From: Lentisphaeria bacterium
Lineage (GTDB): Bacteria; Verrucomicrobiota; Lentisphaeria; Victivallales; Victivallaceae
Assembly (NCBI GenBank): GCA_017505415.1
Contig: JAFVPG010000247.1
Span: forward strand, 1-32,731
Length of the DNA: 32,731 nucleotides
Direction of reading: 5' to 3'
Every line of letters starts with the position of its first letter. The first letter of the stretch is position 1. Below the pieces are notes generated by a model. The model was not told the DNA's origin. It was given only the letters and a program-made list of their open reading frames with translations, and did not search any database. Of the stretch, positions 10,558 to 23,902 are shown in pieces. Made by a program: the position numbers and the translations under genes.

Positions 10558-11613
10558 TTATTTACTATTCTCAAACGCATCAAAATCGTCTGAAGATATT
10601 TTCGGAATCAATTCTGTTTTTACAAGCATTGCAGGCAATTCAATCAAACCTGACGGATGACATCCTGCTTTGATTGCTTTTAATAATTCCACACAGCCGG
10701 TATAGCCGATTTGCTGTGGATATTGTTCTATTGTAGCTATGGCAGAATTCTGTTTATATATATTTCCGAATCCGGTAACAACTACATTTTCAGATGCCAT
10801 ATTCGCCCTTTTCAACATATTTATCACACGATAAGCTACATCATCAGCATCTGTCAATATTATAGTTGTTTCAGGATATTTCTGAAAAATCATTTTCAAC
10901 GTCAGATAAATGTTGGTATCTACAAGACCGTGCGGATTAAAAATTCTGTTTTCAACATCTTTTATTCCTGCCTGTATCATCGCATCAGAAAAACCTTCAA
11001 TTCTTTTTCTGCGCGTAAATTCAACCTCTGCCACATCACTTATTATAATGATTTCTCTGTGACCTTTATCAATGACATGCTGCGCCATTTCAAAAGCAGC
11101 TTTGTAATTATCACAGCTGACAGTACAACCATATCTTACATCCGGCAAGCCTGAATCAAGCGCAACTATCGGAAGTTTATAATCAACAGGAGGAGGAAAT
11201 ATACCGCATATCAGCAATCCGTCAATTCCTGCGTTTTCGAGTTTTTCTATATATTGCGGTATCATTGACGGCGAAGGCAGTGCGATATCAAGCATATAAT
11301 CATTCTCAAGGGCGGCAGCTTGAATACCATATACCATGTGCATATAATACAGATGTTTCAACGGCCCGACATACGCAATCCTGCCGACAGGGAAACGTGA
11401 ATTTTTGCAAACCATAGTTCCTGAGCCTTGCACGCCGCGTTTCAAATACCCCTCCGACACAAGCATTGTCGTAATTTTATTTATGGTGGCACGGGCAACC
11501 TTAAAACGGGACATCAGAGCATGTTCTGACGGAAATTTTTTCCCGATTTCATATTTGCCCGTTTCAAGTTCATGCCGCAGAATATTTGTTATTTCTTTTG
11601 CTTTTGCTGTCAT
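10558..11613 (-). CDS. GntR-type DNA-binding domain with LacI-type sensor domain, transcription regulator
   Basis: The 351-residue regulator has a GntR winged helix at about residues 4-70 (KFPSEHALMSRFKVARATINKITTMLVSEGYLKRG...GSGTMV). A LacI/periplasmic-binding-protein sensor fills the rest (GRIAYVGPL..., DGLLICG, VALDSG, DKGHREIIIISD, RIEGFSDAM, VVVTGFGN). Hybrids of this kind (AraR-like) usually repress sugar genes until a sugar binds. The ATG is preceded by AAGGA at good spacing. It is divergent from the pilin-heparinase operon, and two identical palindromic sites lie in the shared intergenic region, so control of that operon is likely (inference). Its own promoter region has a related AAAAGTTT sequence, compatible with autoregulation. 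Confidence 0.92.
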   Translation of the reverse strand: MTAKAKEITNILRHELETGKYEIGKKFPSEHALMSRFKVARATINKITTMLVSEGYLKRGVQGSGTMVCKNSRFPVGRIAYVGPLKHLYYMHMVYGIQAAALENDYMLDIALPSPSMIPQYIEKLENAGIDGLLICGIFPPPVDYKLPIVALDSGLPDVRYGCTVSCDNYKAAFEMAQHVIDKGHREIIIISDVAEVEFTRRKRIEGFSDAMIQAGIKDVENRIFNPHGLVDTNIYLTLKMIFQKYPETTIILTDADDVAYRVINMLKRANMASENVVVTGFGNIYKQNSAIATIEQYPQQIGYTGCVELLKAIKAGCHPSGLIELPAMLVKTELIPKISSDDFDAFENSK

Positions 11614-11664: not shown

Positions 11665-11741
11665 CAATATTTTTCTGATTTATTGCAAATATAAACTTTT
11701 TCTTTAAAAAAGCATTATTCTATGATATAAAACATATATTA

Positions 11742-11766
11742 AAAAAAGTTGATGAACAACTTTTTT
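11742..11766. promoter_or_regulatory. Palindromic operator candidate 1
   Basis: Arms AAAAAAGTTG (11742-11751) and CAACTTTTTT (11757-11766) are exact reverse complements, separated by 5 nt. The same AAAAGTTG/CAACTTTT core occurs again at 11835-11856. A single half-site, ACAACTTTT, lies between them (11776-11784). The location, just upstream of the -35 box of the pilin-heparinase operon and facing the GntR/LacI regulator gene, suits a regulator binding site. Confidence 0.65.
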
Positions 11767-11788
11767 CACAAAAAAACAACTTTTATAT

Positions 11789-11817
11789 TTGCTTTTTATT
11801 TCAATATGTATTATTAT
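11789..11817 (+). promoter_or_regulatory. Candidate promoter of the pilin-heparinase operon
   Basis: TTGCTT (11789-11794), a 17-nt spacer and TATTAT (11812-11817) lie between the two palindromes. Transcription would start near 11824, leaving a leader of about 105 nt that contains the second palindrome. Confidence 0.45.
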
Positions 11818-11834
11818 TAAAATAACATACAATA

Positions 11835-11856
11835 AAAAGTTGTCTATTCAACTTTT
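11835..11856. promoter_or_regulatory. Palindromic operator candidate 2
   Basis: Arms AAAAGTTG (11835-11842) and CAACTTTT (11849-11856) are separated by 6 nt and repeat the core of the site at 11742-11766. The two centres are about 91 bp apart. This copy lies just downstream of the predicted transcription start, where bound protein would block transcription. Confidence 0.65.
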
Positions 11857-11929
11857 CCCGTATCACATAAAATCTATTGTAAATCAACAAAATTCAATAG
11901 AATTTATCAGCTTAAAGAAAGGCTAAAAA

Positions 11930-13858
11930 ATGAAACAAACAAAATTCACACTAATTGAACTTCTGGTTGTAATTGCCATAATTGCATTTATTGCTGCAAT
12001 TATTATTTTTGTTTACCGTAAAAAAGAAACAGAAAAAACAAACAGCAACTCGACAGAAAACAAAAATATTAATTATTTCGACAAATATATTTCTGAAGAT
12101 TTTTATTCAGGGATAAAAAGCGGCGATTTCAACCGCAATATTTATCCCCGGTTCAGTGACAGAGAAGCATGGGAAAAGGTACGCAAAAACAAGCATGCAG
12201 ATATGATAATTGCCAATGCAGATGCTGTTTTGGGGAAAGACATTCCGCAGTTGAGATTTTCAGAATTCCGCCGATTTGCCACTGACGGTAATAGAGACGG
12301 TTATGAAAAAATATATTATGAACGGCGCAGAAATCTCAACTTTACTGTATTAGCATTGTGCCTGACGGGTGATAAAGCAAAATATATGCCGACAGTTCTG
12401 GATTATGTTGTTGCTATAATGGAAGAATTTACCTGGACATTTCCGGCGCACTCATACTGGCAGGGAAAAAGACTTTCTGATGTTGATAATACAGATCTTT
12501 TCTGTGCAGAAACCGGTGCTATGATGGCGATAATTTATCATATTCTCGGAGAAGAACTGGATAAAGAAATAGAAAATATTTCCGAAAAAATACGCATTCA
12601 GACATTGCAGAGAACTCTTTACAATATTTTTTATACTCCTCATATCAAAGTACACCGAAGACACTGGTGGTTTGATTTCTTTTGGCGGAAAAACAATTGG
12701 ACTCCATGGTGTTCTGCAAACTGTATTTTAACTGCAATATTACTGGAAAAAGACAATGAAAAATTGGCACATTTCATTCACAGGCTTTTGCAGGCCAATG
12801 CGATTTTTGTATCACAGTACAGCGAAGACGGTTTTTGTGAGGAGGGCTGTGATTATTATTATGCTTCGGGGTTAAGGTTATTTGAAATTTTCTATATGCT
12901 GCACAGAATAAAACCCGGCAGCATGGAAAAAGTTATTGCAGTTCCGAAACTCCGGGCAATACTTGAATTTATCGCTCATTGCAATATCAACGATAAATAC
13001 CGGATAAATTTTGCTGACGGCAGTGCATTTGCAACACAAAAAATATCAGCATCCTTAGCCGCATGTGCCAAATTGATTGACTCCCGGATATTACAGGATT
13101 TTGTCGGCAATAAACAGGCAAGTCTGGGGGGATTGGGCAATGAATTAAGTACCTGTATGAAAATACTGTTTGATATGCCGGAACAAAAAGAAGGCAAAAA
13201 AACTGAATTGATTCCTTTCACATACTTCAAAGACCGTATTGCAATATTGAGGTCAAATGATTTTTCAGCGACAATCAAAGCAGGACATAATGCAGAATCC
13301 CATAACCATAATGACCTCGGACACTTTACTGTTTTTTATAAAGGCGAACCGGTAATCGTCGATGCAGGAACTGAAGTTTATTCCAGAATAAATTTCTCCG
13401 AAGAACGCTATACTTTATGGTATACCAGAGGCTCCGGACACAACGCTCCGGTTTTCGATAATATTGAACAGCAGAATGACGGCAAATACAAGGCTGTATT
13501 CGATTCTGCAAGTAAAAATAAAGTCGTTTGCAATTTAAGCAAGGCATATCCACTTGAAGCAGGTGTGAAAAAGTTTATCCGCACGCTGGATTTTTCACCC
13601 GATTGTGTTGCCATATCTGATAATTTTGAACTTGCAAAAACAAAAGATGCAAACATAAAACTTTTGACTTTGTGCGATGTGGAAAAACTTGCAAACGGCG
13701 ATGTCCGAATCGGCAATGTTATAATGAAACTTGATGGTATTGAATTCATAAAAACTGAAAAATTACCCAAAATGAACGGAGGCTGGAAATGTGCTGTAAA
13801 TGAAATTTATTTGAAAAGTTCAAAAAATAATTACTCTATCCGTTTTTCTCAAAAATAA
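11930..13858 (+). CDS. Pilin-type N-terminus fused to a heparinase II/III-like polysaccharide lyase
   Basis: Residues 7-29 are a textbook type IV pilin/pseudopilin start: [22 protein letters not shown], with Glu at mature position 5. A charged linker follows (KKETEKTNSNSTENKN, about 31-46). The remaining 590 residues resemble heparinase II/III-type lyases. An alpha-helical toroid region (about 70-400) includes DGFCEEGCDYYYASG (300-314), and a beta-sandwich part carries GHNAESHNHNDLGHF (452-466) then VIVDAGTEVYS, the conserved His/Asn-rich and DAG metal/active-site region. Such lyases cut uronic-acid polysaccharides by beta-elimination. Members usually have a Sec signal or none; the pilin-type leader is odd and implies inner-membrane anchoring or assembly into a pseudopilus. 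AAAGG precedes the ATG. It is the first gene of an operon with two pseudopilins and a DUF4838 protein. Confidence 0.88.
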   Translation: MKQTKFTLIELLVVIAIIAFIAAIIIFVYRKKETEKTNSNSTENKNINYFDKYISEDFYSGIKSGDFNRNIYPRFSDREAWEKVRKNKHADMIIANADAVLGKDIPQLRFSEFRRFATDGNRDGYEKIYYERRRNLNFTVLALCLTGDKAKYMPTVLDYVVAIMEEFTWTFPAHSYWQGKRLSDVDNTDLFCAETGAMMAIIYHILGEELDKEIENISEKIRIQTLQRTLYNIFYTPHIKVHRRHWWFDFFWRKNNWTPWCSANCILTAILLEKDNEKLAHFIHRLLQANAIFVSQYSEDGFCEEGCDYYYASGLRLFEIFYMLHRIKPGSMEKVIAVPKLRAILEFIAHCNINDKYRINFADGSAFATQKISASLAACAKLIDSRILQDFVGNKQASLGGLGNELSTCMKILFDMPEQKEGKKTELIPFTYFKDRIAILRSNDFSATIKAGHNAESHNHNDLGHFTVFYKGEPVIVDAGTEVYSRINFSEERYTLWYTRGSGHNAPVFDNIEQQNDGKYKAVFDSASKNKVVCNLSKAYPLEAGVKKFIRTLDFSPDCVAISDNFELAKTKDANIKLLTLCDVEKLANGDVRIGNVIMKLDGIEFIKTEKLPKMNGGWKCAVNEIYLKSSKNNYSIRFSQK

Positions 13859-13909
13859 ATTCCCCAAAAACACAAAAATATATATCACCCCTAACAGAAA
13901 GGACAATTT

Positions 13910-14584
13910 ATGAAAAAATTATTTACACTGACTGAACTCGTTATTGTAATGATGATCTGTGTCACTTTTATCGCAATCATTATTCCCTCAGTCAACGCAA
14001 AAGAAGATGCCTTGAAAGTCAGCTGTACCGGTAATTTGAAACAACTTTATGCTATTGAACAGATGTATGCCAACGATAATGGCGGCTATATTTGTCCCAC
14101 TACAGTAAACCGCAAAGGTTATGCACGCAATCTTATTCCTTATGCCAAAGGAAATATGGATATTTTTGCCTGTCCGGATGCAAAAAATGCTCCGTATGCT
14201 AAAAAAATCACCACTAAAAATTGGAAGGAAATACCCGCCGGAAAATATTATCTCGAAAGAACTTATATGCGCAACTCTTGTATCGGCGGCTGGGAACCTT
14301 TCAAAGCATGGCACGGCAAAGCACGCAAATTTGAAGGAACCAGAAAACCTGAACGTTATGTCATGACTTTTGACGGCAACATGTCACAGGGAACATGGGA
14401 AATTATCCGTTACAATGCAAAAACAAAAGTTTCAAAAGGTGTTGAATACCGCCATGATGACAGTGCCAATGTCCTTTTTCAGGACGGTCATATTGCCGCA
14501 TTCAAGCCTGCTGATTTCAAAGGCGGCCGCGGCATCGGCACTCCTGATGAAGGCGGCAACAAATATACTTTTGCCCGCAGATAA
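13910..14584 (+). CDS. Pseudopilin-like protein with H-X9-DG motif
   Basis: The 224-residue protein starts MKKLFTLTELVIVMMICVTF, a prepilin-type segment with Glu at mature position 5, then a single helix and a globular part. Near the end RHDDSANVLFQDGH has the H-X9-DG motif seen in the large pseudopilin families of Planctomycetes and Lentisphaerota (DUF1559-type and relatives). CSCTGNLKQ-like spacing (SCTGNLKQLYAIEQMYANDNGG) matches the region after the helix in those families. It diverges from the standard [19 protein letters not shown] helix, so it is a distinct paralogue. AGAAAGGA precedes the ATG. It lies between the lyase fusion and another pseudopilin, which suggests a minor pilin working with them. 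Function is unknown. Confidence 0.85.
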   Translation: MKKLFTLTELVIVMMICVTFIAIIIPSVNAKEDALKVSCTGNLKQLYAIEQMYANDNGGYICPTTVNRKGYARNLIPYAKGNMDIFACPDAKNAPYAKKITTKNWKEIPAGKYYLERTYMRNSCIGGWEPFKAWHGKARKFEGTRKPERYVMTFDGNMSQGTWEIIRYNAKTKVSKGVEYRHDDSANVLFQDGHIAAFKPADFKGGRGIGTPDEGGNKYTFARR

Positions 14585-14632
14585 TCAAAAAAATAAACAA
14601 TTTGGTAAAAATTAAAAAGAGAAGGAAAATTT

Positions 14633-15343
14633 ATGAAAAAGACATTCACTCTGATTGAACTTCTTGTTGTAATTGCCATCATCGCGATTCTTGCCGGAAT
14701 GCTGCTCCCAGCCCTCAACAATGCGAGAGAAAAAGGACGTTCTGCCAAATGTACCAGCAATTTGAAAACACTCGGACTTGCAGCAACAATGTATATGTCT
14801 GATTATGAAGACTGGATTCCTTCTATGGGAATAGGAAAAATGAACAGCAGTGCCAATGACCGTGTGCTTTATATGTTATCTTCTTATGTAAATAAATACG
14901 CTATCTGGACTTGTCCGTCCGCAAATTATACCACATGGACTCCCACTGGATATCCGAATGCTTATCAGCATTACGGCGTGGAAATTGCTCTTGGCTCCAA
15001 CATGTCAACCAGTTTTAGTTATAGTAATTTGAAAATGAGAAATCTGCTGCATCCGGTCAAAGTTGTCTATGCGGCAGACAGATTTGCCCCGAAAAACGAT
15101 GGCGGTTCAAATGATCCGAATTATGCCTGTGCGGGATACAACAGCGGCGGCGGTGTAAGACATTATGACGCCCGCCACGGAAGCCGCTTCAATATGGTTT
15201 TCATGGATGGTTCAGTTCATTCTTTCAAAGGAACACCGAAAGGTACGGAATATAATAATCCAAGTGCTGATTTTGATGCACATACCAAAGGATATACGCC
15301 TTATTACTACAACAAGAAAAAATTTGACGGCTCAAACAGATAA
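14633..15343 (+). CDS. Pseudopilin-like protein with H-X9-DG motif
   Basis: The 236-residue protein opens with [20 protein letters not shown] followed by [20 protein letters not shown], the standard start of Lentisphaerota/Planctomycete pseudopilins. [13 protein letters not shown] is a clear H-X9-DG motif. Between them comes [10 protein letters not shown], matching the 'Y..DY...P' segment of the family, and WTCPSA, matching its F.CP-type cysteine motif. The N-terminal residue before the predicted cleavage point is Thr, not Gly. The protein would be an inner-membrane or pseudopilus component exposed to the periplasm. It is third in the lyase operon, 48 nt after the previous gene, with AGAAGGA ahead of the ATG, and 19 nt before the DUF4838 gene. 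Confidence 0.92.
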
Positions 15344-15362
15344 TAAATAAAAGGATTTGATA

Positions 15363-17621
15363 ATGATTTACAAAATTATTTGTTCAATATTGGCACTGAC
15401 GGCTTTTTGTGCCTCAGCCATAGAAATAAAACTGCCGGAAAAACCGTCCGTGCATGAAAAAAATGCCGCCGCTTTGCTGCAAAAACATGCAGATAAAATT
15501 GATAAAGACAGCAAAACTCTTTTTAATATAACTCTTGCACCGGATATGGAGTATGGTGCATGGAGCGTTTCATCTGACGGCAAAATTGTAACGTTAAAAG
15601 GCGGCAAACATGGTATCTATCTGGCAGTTGCACATTATTTGCAGGATATTTGCGATGTGATATTTTATTCACCGTTTGAGCGTGAATATCTCAAAAAAGA
15701 ACTGCCTTCAAAGTTCAAATCCATTTCCGGCAAATCTGCTTTTTATTTTAATGAAATTCACTCGATTTACGGCAGAGACAACGGCGAATTTGCGCTTCTC
15801 CGCGGCTTGAACAATGACGGGTACAACAGCATTTCCTCCCGACCGGGATTTTGGAGAGTTTTCGGCAGACCGTACAATATTCATACATTTATGTATTATA
15901 TTCCGGCAAAAAAATATTTTGCATCTCATCCCGAATGGTTCTCTGAAATAAATGGCAAACGTATAAGTCTGCAATCACAACTCTGCCTGAGCAATGCAGA
16001 ACTGCGCAAGGAAGTTTTGAAAAATCTCCAAATATATATTGCCAAAGATATTGCTGATGCTGAAAAAAACAATGTCGAAGCACCACATATTTATGATATT
16101 TCACAGAATGATCATCAACGCTTCTGCCGTTGTAAAAACTGCAATGAACTTGCCGCAAAATATGGTAATACTCAATCCGGACTTTTATTGGATTTTATCA
16201 ATGAGATCGCCCGTGAGATCCGCAAAACCAATCCGGGAATCATGATTTCAACTGCAATGTATCAGTATACCGAAAAAGTTCCATCCAATATCAAACCGGA
16301 GGAAAATGTTATTATCGTTCTTACTGATACTTTGTCCAATGTTCTCTGTCCGCTTACCGATAAACAGAACAAATATTTTTACAACTTGCTTCAGGCCTGG
16401 TCAAAATTGACTCCGAATATCCGCCTCTGGGATTATAATATTACCTACACCCAACCGCAGGAAATGCCCTATAACAGCGAATGGACATATCAATCAGATA
16501 TGAAATTTTTCCGTGACTGCGGCGTAAAACAGTTGTTTACTGAATTTGAAGAAGCTATCCTCGCCGACGTGCGTGATTACAAAATTTATCTCAAAACAGC
16601 AGTTCAGGAAAATCCGGATGTCGATTTTGAAGCTGTACGAAAAAAATTTGTGTATAATTTTTACGGCAAAGCCGGTGATTTGTTTCTGCAATACCGCGAT
16701 GTGCTGAAGAAAGCACAGGAGCGCAAAAATCCGTATCTAGGGATGTATCCTCCGACCGCCGCCAGCAGTCATTTGGATCTGGAGACAATTACAGAAGCAC
16801 AGAAAATTTTTGAAAAAGGTTTTGAACTCCTCAAAGATGATCCCGTCCGTCTCAAACGCTGGCGTTTTGCACGCCTCGGCATCGACCGTGCAACTTTGAT
16901 TATGGCACGTCCGCTGATGGCAGAATATTTGAAGAAAAACGGCTCTCTCAAAGGCTATCCCTTTATGGACCGTAAGGCGATTGCAGAACGTATTATGAAT
17001 ACCGTTACGGAACAGGCAAAAATCCGTCTTTTTCCCTCTCAAATTGAAAAACTGCTCAAATATATGAAGCAGGAAATTGAAAAATGCACTCTGCCGATCA
17101 CTGAACGCAGTTTATATACTCCGGAACAATTCAAAAATATCTCCGCAGACAGATTATTCGATTTTACAATGGAAAACGCTATGCGTTGGAGAAATTATAT
17201 CAAGCTTGTCGACGACCCGGAATCTGATGTAGGAACTGTCGCAAGCATCACTTTCCCCAGTCCGGATAAACGGATAAAATTTGAGGATTACAAACTGCCG
17301 ATTTGGTTTTGTACTTATTCTCCGGCAATCAAAAAGAATCTTTGGGGACAGAGCCTTTTCCCGAGATTTGTGAAAAAATCCGGTTACAACTGGTACAAAC
17401 TCGGAGAAACCAAATTGAGTTCAGATTGCATATTTGTAATTTTCAGAAGCTGGAATCTGCAGCTCGGAGCATCCGGACCTTTTGATATGAATGATCCTGA
17501 CCGCAAATTTGAAGTCTGGGTCAGAATCAAATTTACAGGTCCCGGTTATCCTTTCGGCAAAAAAGATGAGCCTGACGCTTTCTTCATTGAACGTGTAATG
17601 CTGGTAAAAAAAATGAACTGA
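15363..17621 (+). CDS. Exported DUF4838 domain protein
   Basis: This 752-residue protein has a Sec signal peptide (MIYKIICSILALTAFCASA, cleavage likely before IE). An N-terminal hexosaminidase/glucuronidase-like small domain follows (HEKNAAALLQKHADK; GIYLAVAHYLQDI). The DUF4838 core is marked by YDISQNDHQRFCRCKNC around residues 243-260 and WDYNITYTQPQEMP after it. The C-terminus (VRIKFTGPGYPF...IERVMLVKK) matches that of the protein at 2-1930. A TTG at 15357 is possible, but the ATG at 15363 has AAGGA 7 nt before it. The family looks like a glycosidase relative with unproven activity. As the last gene of the pilin-heparinase operon it probably acts in the periplasm on the oligosaccharides released by the lyase (inference). 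A strong terminator follows. Confidence 0.9.
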   Translation: MIYKIICSILALTAFCASAIEIKLPEKPSVHEKNAAALLQKHADKIDKDSKTLFNITLAPDMEYGAWSVSSDGKIVTLKGGKHGIYLAVAHYLQDICDVIFYSPFEREYLKKELPSKFKSISGKSAFYFNEIHSIYGRDNGEFALLRGLNNDGYNSISSRPGFWRVFGRPYNIHTFMYYIPAKKYFASHPEWFSEINGKRISLQSQLCLSNAELRKEVLKNLQIYIAKDIADAEKNNVEAPHIYDISQNDHQRFCRCKNCNELAAKYGNTQSGLLLDFINEIAREIRKTNPGIMISTAMYQYTEKVPSNIKPEENVIIVLTDTLSNVLCPLTDKQNKYFYNLLQAWSKLTPNIRLWDYNITYTQPQEMPYNSEWTYQSDMKFFRDCGVKQLFTEFEEAILADVRDYKIYLKTAVQENPDVDFEAVRKKFVYNFYGKAGDLFLQYRDVLKKAQERKNPYLGMYPPTAASSHLDLETITEAQKIFEKGFELLKDDPVRLKRWRFARLGIDRATLIMARPLMAEYLKKNGSLKGYPFMDRKAIAERIMNTVTEQAKIRLFPSQIEKLLKYMKQEIEKCTLPITERSLYTPEQFKNISADRLFDFTMENAMRWRNYIKLVDDPESDVGTVASITFPSPDKRIKFEDYKLPIWFCTYSPAIKKNLWGQSLFPRFVKKSGYNWYKLGETKLSSDCIFVIFRSWNLQLGASGPFDMNDPDRKFEVWVRIKFTGPGYPFGKKDEPDAFFIERVMLVKKMN

Positions 17622-22573: not shown

Positions 22574-23674
22574 TCAGAAAAATACTTTTCTCTCAAAATC
22601 AGGAATGAATTTTATATTTGTCTCTTCCGGTACTCTACCGCTGGCCAGCATCAAAAGAATATTGCAGCAATTTTCAGCCAATTTTAAATGGTCAAAAAAC
22701 ATATACTCACCTTTGGTACGCAGAGGCCACGCAAAACCTGCCTGTTTGCATTCCACATGAATCAGTTCCGGATTCCAGTCATCTTTGCCAAGCTCTCCTG
22801 CTATCCATGTAGCAAGCACGTCATCAGGAATTATAAGCACATCAGGACGACTTTCCGGTTTTAACTTTTTAAGATTATACATCAATAAAATAATCTTTTT
22901 CATGTTTTCTTCCAGACTCCATGACGAATTTTCATCTTCCCGCATAAAAAAACAGAATTGTTCCGGAGCAAAATCTCCGAAATCAAAAATATTACTGCTT
23001 TCAAGAAAAACTCTCCGGAATTCATCAGTAAACGGATATCCTATATGTATAAGCATCGGGCGCTTAAAATTACGCTCATGAACTCTCTGTAATATTTTTG
23101 CAATATCAACGTGATAATGCACGCTCGGAACATTCTGTGATTTACCGTCAAGGCCCATATAACACAATGGAATATCTTCTGTCCGGCAAACAGAAATACT
23201 CTCTTTATCAAGTTTCACCAGCGATATGATACCGTCAATCTCATGTTTTTTAACAGCTTTTTCCAATCCGGCAAACTCTGAAATATGAAAATTATCTTTC
23301 AATTCAGATTCTTTTTTTATGAAAAAATTTATATGACAAGCCCGCTTATTAAGCACAAGCGCAAGAGACTGAACCATACTTGCAGCAGCAGCAAATTCAG
23401 TATCATGGTGACATATAACTCCAATATTCCTGCCGACATATCCCTCAATATTTTCAGAAGCTACAAAAACCCCATGTTTGCCTTTTACCGCCAATATTCC
23501 ATCAGAAGCCAAAGCCTGAATAGCCCTGCCAATAACAGCATTACCAACTCCAAGTTCTTGCCGTAAAACGACTTGTGTTGGTATTCTATCGCCAGTTTTC
23601 AACTGATGATCAATGATATAATTAACGATTTCCCGTTTGACAAGTTCAGTTTGTTTACCTTGATTTTTTTGCAT
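22574..23674 (-). CDS. GntR-type transcription regulator with sugar-binding-protein-like sensor
   Basis: The 366-residue regulator has an N-terminal GntR winged helix (residues about 10-75: LVKREIVNYIIDHQLKTGDRIPTQ...GVGNAVIGRAIQALASDGILAVKGKHGVFVA). A LacI/periplasmic-binding-like sensor follows (RNIGVICHHD, DGIISL, PLCYMGLDG, DVLIIPDDVLATWI). It is divergent in sequence from the regulator at 10558-11613. Upstream starts extend the frame to 402 residues with a hydrophobic stretch (KKIYYFLFFLLTT), but the ATG at 23674 has GAGG correctly spaced and starts just before the DNA-binding domain. The extension also overlaps the promoter. It heads a minus-strand series of pseudopilin and DUF4838 genes, which it probably controls together with itself (inference). 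Confidence 0.9.
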   Translation of the reverse strand: MQKNQGKQTELVKREIVNYIIDHQLKTGDRIPTQVVLRQELGVGNAVIGRAIQALASDGILAVKGKHGVFVASENIEGYVGRNIGVICHHDTEFAAAASMVQSLALVLNKRACHINFFIKKESELKDNFHISEFAGLEKAVKKHEIDGIISLVKLDKESISVCRTEDIPLCYMGLDGKSQNVPSVHYHVDIAKILQRVHERNFKRPMLIHIGYPFTDEFRRVFLESSNIFDFGDFAPEQFCFFMREDENSSWSLEENMKKIILLMYNLKKLKPESRPDVLIIPDDVLATWIAGELGKDDWNPELIHVECKQAGFAWPLRTKGEYMFFDHLKLAENCCNILLMLASGRVPEETNIKFIPDFERKVFF

Positions 23675-23717
23675 TATAAAAGCCTCTTTCATTAACCTAT
23701 TTTTGGGTTTCGGTGTT

Positions 23718-23746
23718 AATATAGCATATAAAAAATTTGTTGTCAA
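23718..23746 (-). promoter_or_regulatory. Strong sigma-70 promoter of the second GntR-type regulator
   Basis: On the minus strand, TTGACA (23741-23746), exactly 17 nt and TATATT (23718-23723) lie about 44 nt before the ATG. This is the best consensus match among the promoters noted in the window. Confidence 0.7.
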
Positions 23747-23902
23747 GAGAAAAAATAAAAAATAATAAATTTTTTTTGACATGCAGATTGAAAAATCAAA
23801 CGCACGTTAATGAGTATTTACTGTAATAAATTTTCATGATTATTTTACGATAAAGTAAAAAACGTTTTCTTTATCATTTCAGATGATATATTTTTTCCGG
23901 AA

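Follow-up and report, generated by a model that had tools for sequence, protein, structure and literature searches.

The window, the whole stretch of 32,731 nucleotides of Lentisphaeria DNA analysed here, contains a gap between two divergent genes in which two perfect palindromes share the same arm. This layout raises the question of which protein reads the palindromes and which promoters they serve. A sequence-only reading had placed the inverted repeats at 11742-11766 and 11835-11856, with spacers of 5 and 6 nt and a half-site between them, and had assigned them to the adjoining GntR/LacI regulator. Inspection confirmed both perfect palindromes, their unequal spacers and the half-site. The gap, measured from the start codon of the regulator gene on the minus strand to that of the heparinase-like gene on the plus strand, spans 316 bp and has a GC content of 18.7%. 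The genes and sites are as follows:

10558-11613, minus strand: regulator of 351 aa with a GntR winged helix-turn-helix and a LacI-type periplasmic-binding-protein domain
11742-11766, no strand: site 1, AAAAAAGTTG-ATGAA-CAACTTTTTT, a 25-bp perfect palindrome with 10-bp arms and a 5-bp spacer; candidate operator
11777-11784, no strand: extra half-site, CAACTTTT, in the same orientation as the right half of site 1
11835-11856, no strand: site 2, AAAAGTTG-TCTATT-CAACTTTT, a 22-bp perfect palindrome with 8-bp arms and a 6-bp spacer; candidate operator
11930-13858, plus strand: heparinase II/III-like protein of 642 aa (PF07940, E 6.9e-8); presumed first target
13910-14584 and 14633-15343, plus strand: two prepilin-like proteins, presumably in the same operon as the heparinase-like gene
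15357-17621, plus strand: DUF4838 protein (PF16126, E 4.1e-62); presumed last gene of the operon

The core of site 1 is AAAAGTTG-N5-CAACTTTT (11744-11764), and the arm common to both sites is 8 bp long. The centres of the two sites are 91.5 bp apart, which corresponds to 8.7 helical turns and is not a whole number. The extra half-site is displaced 20 bp, or roughly two helical turns, downstream from the right half of site 1 and lies within a 10-bp stretch that directly repeats the right arm of that site; in the 68-bp gap between the sites, 0.008 extra half-sites were expected from a Markov background. In the presumed transcript, site 2 would span roughly positions +11 to +32, and it lies 73 bp 5' of the ATG of the heparinase-like gene.

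The domains of the regulator were assigned by Pfam: residues 5-68 form a GntR winged helix-turn-helix (PF00392, E 1.5e-10, above the cut-off) and residues 86-314 a LacI-type domain (PF00532, E 1.2e-17). This is the arrangement of AraR, with an N-terminal GntR helix-turn-helix and a C-terminal GalR/LacI-type effector domain. The weak matches of the regulator in the PDB include the AraR DNA-binding domain 4egy (E 1.3e-4), and chains of the LacI family in the PDB match it too. The traits of the AraR subfamily found here are the winged helix-turn-helix, the GalR/LacI-type effector domain and, scored by presence only, palindromic candidate operators, some of them paired, near target promoters. On the other side of the gap, the divergent gene group extends over 11930-17621 on the plus strand. 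The heparinase-like protein begins with a prepilin-like leader and has weak prepilin-type and HepC matches below the cut-off. A heparinase-like paralogue on another contig of the same genome (C294) opens with another hydrophobic segment in place of the prepilin-like leader. The heparinase homologues of the same genus sit in other gene clusters, and near the one with 60% identity no matching palindrome was present outside open reading frames.

The sequence-only reading had proposed a scan of the genome for the motif, which was carried out on the assembly (3.15 Mb in 403 contigs, 84.5% complete). The pattern AAAGTTG-N3..8-CAACTTT occurred at four places, namely sites 1 and 2 and two N4 matches (C56 and C387), and the form with N5 or N6 was confined to the gap. 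Shuffling the whole window 100 times produced 0 matches to the exact palindrome pattern. When three mismatches were allowed, 82 (N5) and 89 (N6) matches were obtained, fewer than with the reversed-pattern control (119 and 136), and nearly all of six near matches that were inspected lay within open reading frames. Thus, the motif is not scattered across the assembly, and nothing points to a wider regulon; a genome-wide regulon was rejected on the grounds of the three-mismatch scan. The two N4 matches were rejected as operators since each forms part of another inverted repeat that is longer. This repeat, AAGTGCAC..CAAAAGTTG-N4-CAACTTTTG..GTGCACTT, was seen at C56:20887-20928, C387:6643-6684, C122:17299-17340 and C111:904-922, and presumably resembles two transposon ends placed head to head.

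One of the three-mismatch matches, C193:10612, lies directly upstream of the gene of a regulator paralogue with 30% identity, and for this reason the homologues of the regulator were compared. Both genomes of the same genus lacked a homologue at E<=1e-20, and a query of the genome contigs with the regulator found nothing. Searches of the family and the order yielded homologues with 25-43% identity; the relatives that bear names are assemblies of Lentisphaeria, among them several from ruminant guts. Upstream DNA was collected from 69 distinct loci (29 + 40, after 12 duplicates had been dropped). In the regions of the 11 top-ranked homologues (L096-L106, of which L099, L100 and L103 come from one genus and are therefore not independent), the search for AAAAGTTG-Nx-CAACTTTT with at most four mismatches gave 12 matches at N5 and 4 at N6. 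The other spacers from 0 to 12 each gave 0-5 matches, and shuffled regions gave a mean of 0.73 and a maximum of 3 at N5 (60 shuffles). Paired N5 sites were present in 8 of the 11 loci (L098-L104 and L106) when up to five mismatches were allowed, as exemplified by AATACTTGTAATACAACTTTT and TAAAGTTGTATTACTTCTTTT at L100. L105 has a different half-site, TTGACCCACTCAA, and upstream of the two homologues with the highest identity, L096 (43%) and L097 (40%), where the DNA looks coding, no such site was found. Judged from these counts, N5 is the usual spacer of the family and the N6 of site 2 an exception longer by 1 bp; site 2 may be a weaker-binding variant.

A search for half-sites was less informative. 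AAAGT-N8..11-ACTTT with at most one mismatch was found in 9 of 29 regions (shuffle mean 1.2, maximum 5, 300 rounds) and in only 2 of the 40 regions of the next homologue set. The search was weak since the half that overlaps the -35 is frequently degenerate; when sites were scored as a whole, the signal in the homologues emerged. Two other arrangements were noticed. At L035, L047, L048, L112 and L113, tandem half-sites about 14-15 bp apart lie in the regulator promoter, e.g., GACATATCTGCTTTGACATATCTGCTTT at L047. In two genomes of the same genus as the window, the identical palindrome AAAAGTTGACTTTCAACTGTG (L071:4550-4570 and L073:1563-1583) is found some 190 bp ahead of a prepilin gene that is itself nearly identical.

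The two-site layout was then assessed independently of any motif. The 17-mer around the best promoter-like -35 of each regulator was sought 40-160 bp upstream in either orientation, and of the 69 regions, 6 were dropped for want of a promoter-like pair and 63 were compared with shuffles. The 17-mer recurred upstream at p<=0.05 in 24 of 63 regions and at p<=0.01 in 17, while the other 39 fell short of p<=0.05. The promoter rule was loose and had been chosen after viewing the sequences, and probes swapped between loci with unlike sites served as a guard: they reached p<=0.05 in 10 of 252 cases, compared with 23 of 63 for the own probes in the same rerun. At a score of at least 13, own probes succeeded in 20/63 and swapped probes in 2/252. 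The centres of the pairs were 85-110 bp apart in 21 of the 24 regions, as opposed to 20% of the best matches in shuffles, and clustered at 87-92 bp (11 pairs) and 97-108 bp (10 pairs). Rayleigh values for helical phase, computed on loci that are related to one another, were similar for periods of 10-12.

In the relatives, the near copy overlaps the predicted -35 of the regulator gene and the far copy is situated ahead of the divergent gene. The half-sites vary among the homologue loci and agree within each locus, as would follow if every regulator recognises a site of its own. Of 14 homologue loci viewed, 9 have a first divergent gene that encodes a prepilin-type leader, and the same holds for the window. 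The window sites are farther from the genes than those of the relatives; the centre of site 1 is 141 bp from the regulator ATG, compared with 32-79 bp for the 24 paired loci. A locus of another family, L160, has a pair at 101 bp in its divergent gap. At six of seven distinct loci of that other family, no pair was seen by eye, and the upstream DNA is mostly coding-like. An all-against-all repeat search picked out 10 of 70 regions, a mild enrichment that no shuffle in 40 equalled. This search did not pick out the window, for which 32 of 40 shuffles were equally good, owing to the very AT-rich gap and the unequal spacers.

The reading that we prefer, with a probability of about 0.86, is that the palindromes are operators of the divergent AraR-type regulator, through which it would control both its target and itself. 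The assignment to the adjoining regulator made by the sequence-only reading is thus supported, most strongly by the comparative evidence from the N5 pairs of the homologues and from own and swapped probes. Each site of 21-22 bp would bind one dimer, and each winged helix would read one AAAAGTTG half-site. The position of site 1 matches that of the operator at the regulator's own promoter in the relatives, and site 2 falls within what is presumed to be the 5' untranslated region of the heparinase-like, prepilin and DUF4838 genes. Without the inducing sugar, the regulator would occupy both sites, so that the polysaccharide genes would be repressed and its own synthesis limited. The conserved spacing of the pair suggests that the two dimers might help each other, perhaps via a short loop; a loop between the sites is speculative.

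Which promoters the pair serves is a separate question, and the promoter positions in the gap are uncertain. Two candidates, both weak and picked by eye, bear on it:

11731-11759, minus strand: possible regulator promoter overlapping site 1, TTGTTC-N17-TATGTT, in the same register as in the relatives
11789-11817, plus strand: possible promoter of the heparinase group, TTGCTT-N17-TATTAT

According to the sequence-only reading, the sites flank one promoter, one upstream of its -35 and the other just after the start of transcription. The palindromes would then serve the heparinase-like genes only, by looping over that promoter, and the regulator would not be autoregulated. Part of this claim held, as TTGCTT-N17-TATTAT does lie between the sites; the consensus promoter scan, however, called no plus-strand site and only two minus-strand sites, fewer than the shuffle mean. 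The best-looking promoter of the regulator by eye, TTGCAT-N16-TATATT, is nearer to its ATG and has no good site, which also favours control of the heparinase-like genes alone, and loops over two boxes are described for AraR (PMC4218819). The same source states that AraR loops require sites in phase; the window centres are 8.7 turns apart. Moreover, the TTG...TATGTT register is present on the regulator strand at both window sites, and the relatives, with one site over the predicted -35 of the regulator and the other near the divergent gene, point to two divergent promoters. Control of a single promoter therefore appears unlikely, if still a serious contender. Going by the near and far copies in the relatives, the regulator probably acts on its own gene through site 1 and on the target through site 2, so that the pair probably serves two divergent promoters, for autoregulation and target control, instead of flanking one.

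The palindromes might alternatively act as RNA, with site 2 as a leader hairpin that affects attenuation, stability or access of the ribosome, and with site 1 as a weak terminator or a hairpin at a transcript end. The presumed leader (11825-11932) did fold better than all of 200 shuffles (z -4.9), and site 2 forms one of the stems. Any DNA palindrome folds as RNA by construction, and the strong fold is due in part to the palindrome itself; two further stems are present as well, so that the leader may still play some role. These lie in 11857-11932, one with 13-bp arms (11867-11879/11895-11907) and the other near the ribosome site. No Rfam family matched the presumed leader, and no terminator-like site was called. 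Protein binding accounts better for an arm that occurs identically both inside and outside the presumed leader, and for the imperfect halves in the relatives, which match as DNA sites in either orientation. A role of the palindromes as RNA is accordingly judged very improbable.

An equally poor prospect is that the sites belong to some other regulator, for instance one encoded elsewhere. A second GntR-type regulator is apparently encoded in the window at 22574-23782, as read from the translation, and would be a candidate. Against this, the half-sites change from locus to locus along with the adjacent regulator, and own probes outperformed swapped ones by the counts given above. Chance in an AT-rich gap is the least credible account: a single perfect 8-bp palindrome is unremarkable, since at least one arose in 938 of 3000 dinucleotide shuffles of the gap, but two centres with an identical arm arose in just 19 of 3000, the N5/N6 form is found nowhere else in 3.15 Mb, and the homologues repeat the half-site, the spacing and the pairing.

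With the operators of a divergent AraR-type regulator as the preferred reading, the locus can be set beside known systems. In B. subtilis, AraR binds paired 16-bp boxes cooperatively and forms a small loop at some promoters; the box is given as At(T/A)tGTaCGTAcaa(A/T)T (PMC4218819). Like B. subtilis AraR, the window combines a GntR winged helix and a LacI-type sensor with polysaccharide or sugar genes and palindromic sites. Its sites differ from this 16-bp box: they are 21-22 bp long with a different half-site, their GT and AC are 9-10 bp apart, the centre of site 1 is of odd length, and the ara box itself is not matched. As a further difference, the family of the window's regulator probably has one site per divergent promoter, with the pair about 90 or 97-108 bp apart.

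For FadR- and HutC-type regulators, PMC4494728 divides the double sites of divergons into two classes, one with constant distance, presumably cooperative, and one independent. The window shares with these divergons a regulator gene divergent from its target and two sites in the gap. The motifs reconstructed there are those of FadR, HutC and YtrA and not of the AraR type, whereas the family of the window has a LacI-type sensor domain. The weaker extra boxes reported there are 7-12 nt away from the centre of the site; the window half-site, which begins at a distance of 23 bp from the site 1 centre, is not clearly of this kind. The layout of the window belongs to the known AraR and divergon kinds, with a longer operator. 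In the open-licence literature of PubMed Central, no paper on such sites in Lentisphaeria was found, and little on gene regulation in the group. The switch itself would be of an ordinary kind, and the more notable part is the conserved two-site layout in Lentisphaeria.

A broader proposal, to which we would give somewhat less than even odds, is that the large and diverse AraR-type family of Lentisphaeria keeps a fixed module: an operator in the regulator's own -35 region and a second copy, at a distance of about 90 or 97-108 bp, ahead of divergent polysaccharide genes that are often prepilin-led, with paralogues rewriting the half-site code while length and distance are kept. If this were true, a tetramer or a loop would act as a ruler, and the code of each regulator would be readable from its sequence alone. 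For the uncultured Lentisphaeria, a guess from one sequence has become a prediction that names a regulator and its target. The family offers natural variation of the half-site against the recognition helix, and throughout the group the conserved layout provides a simple means of assigning operators and polysaccharide targets to their regulators.
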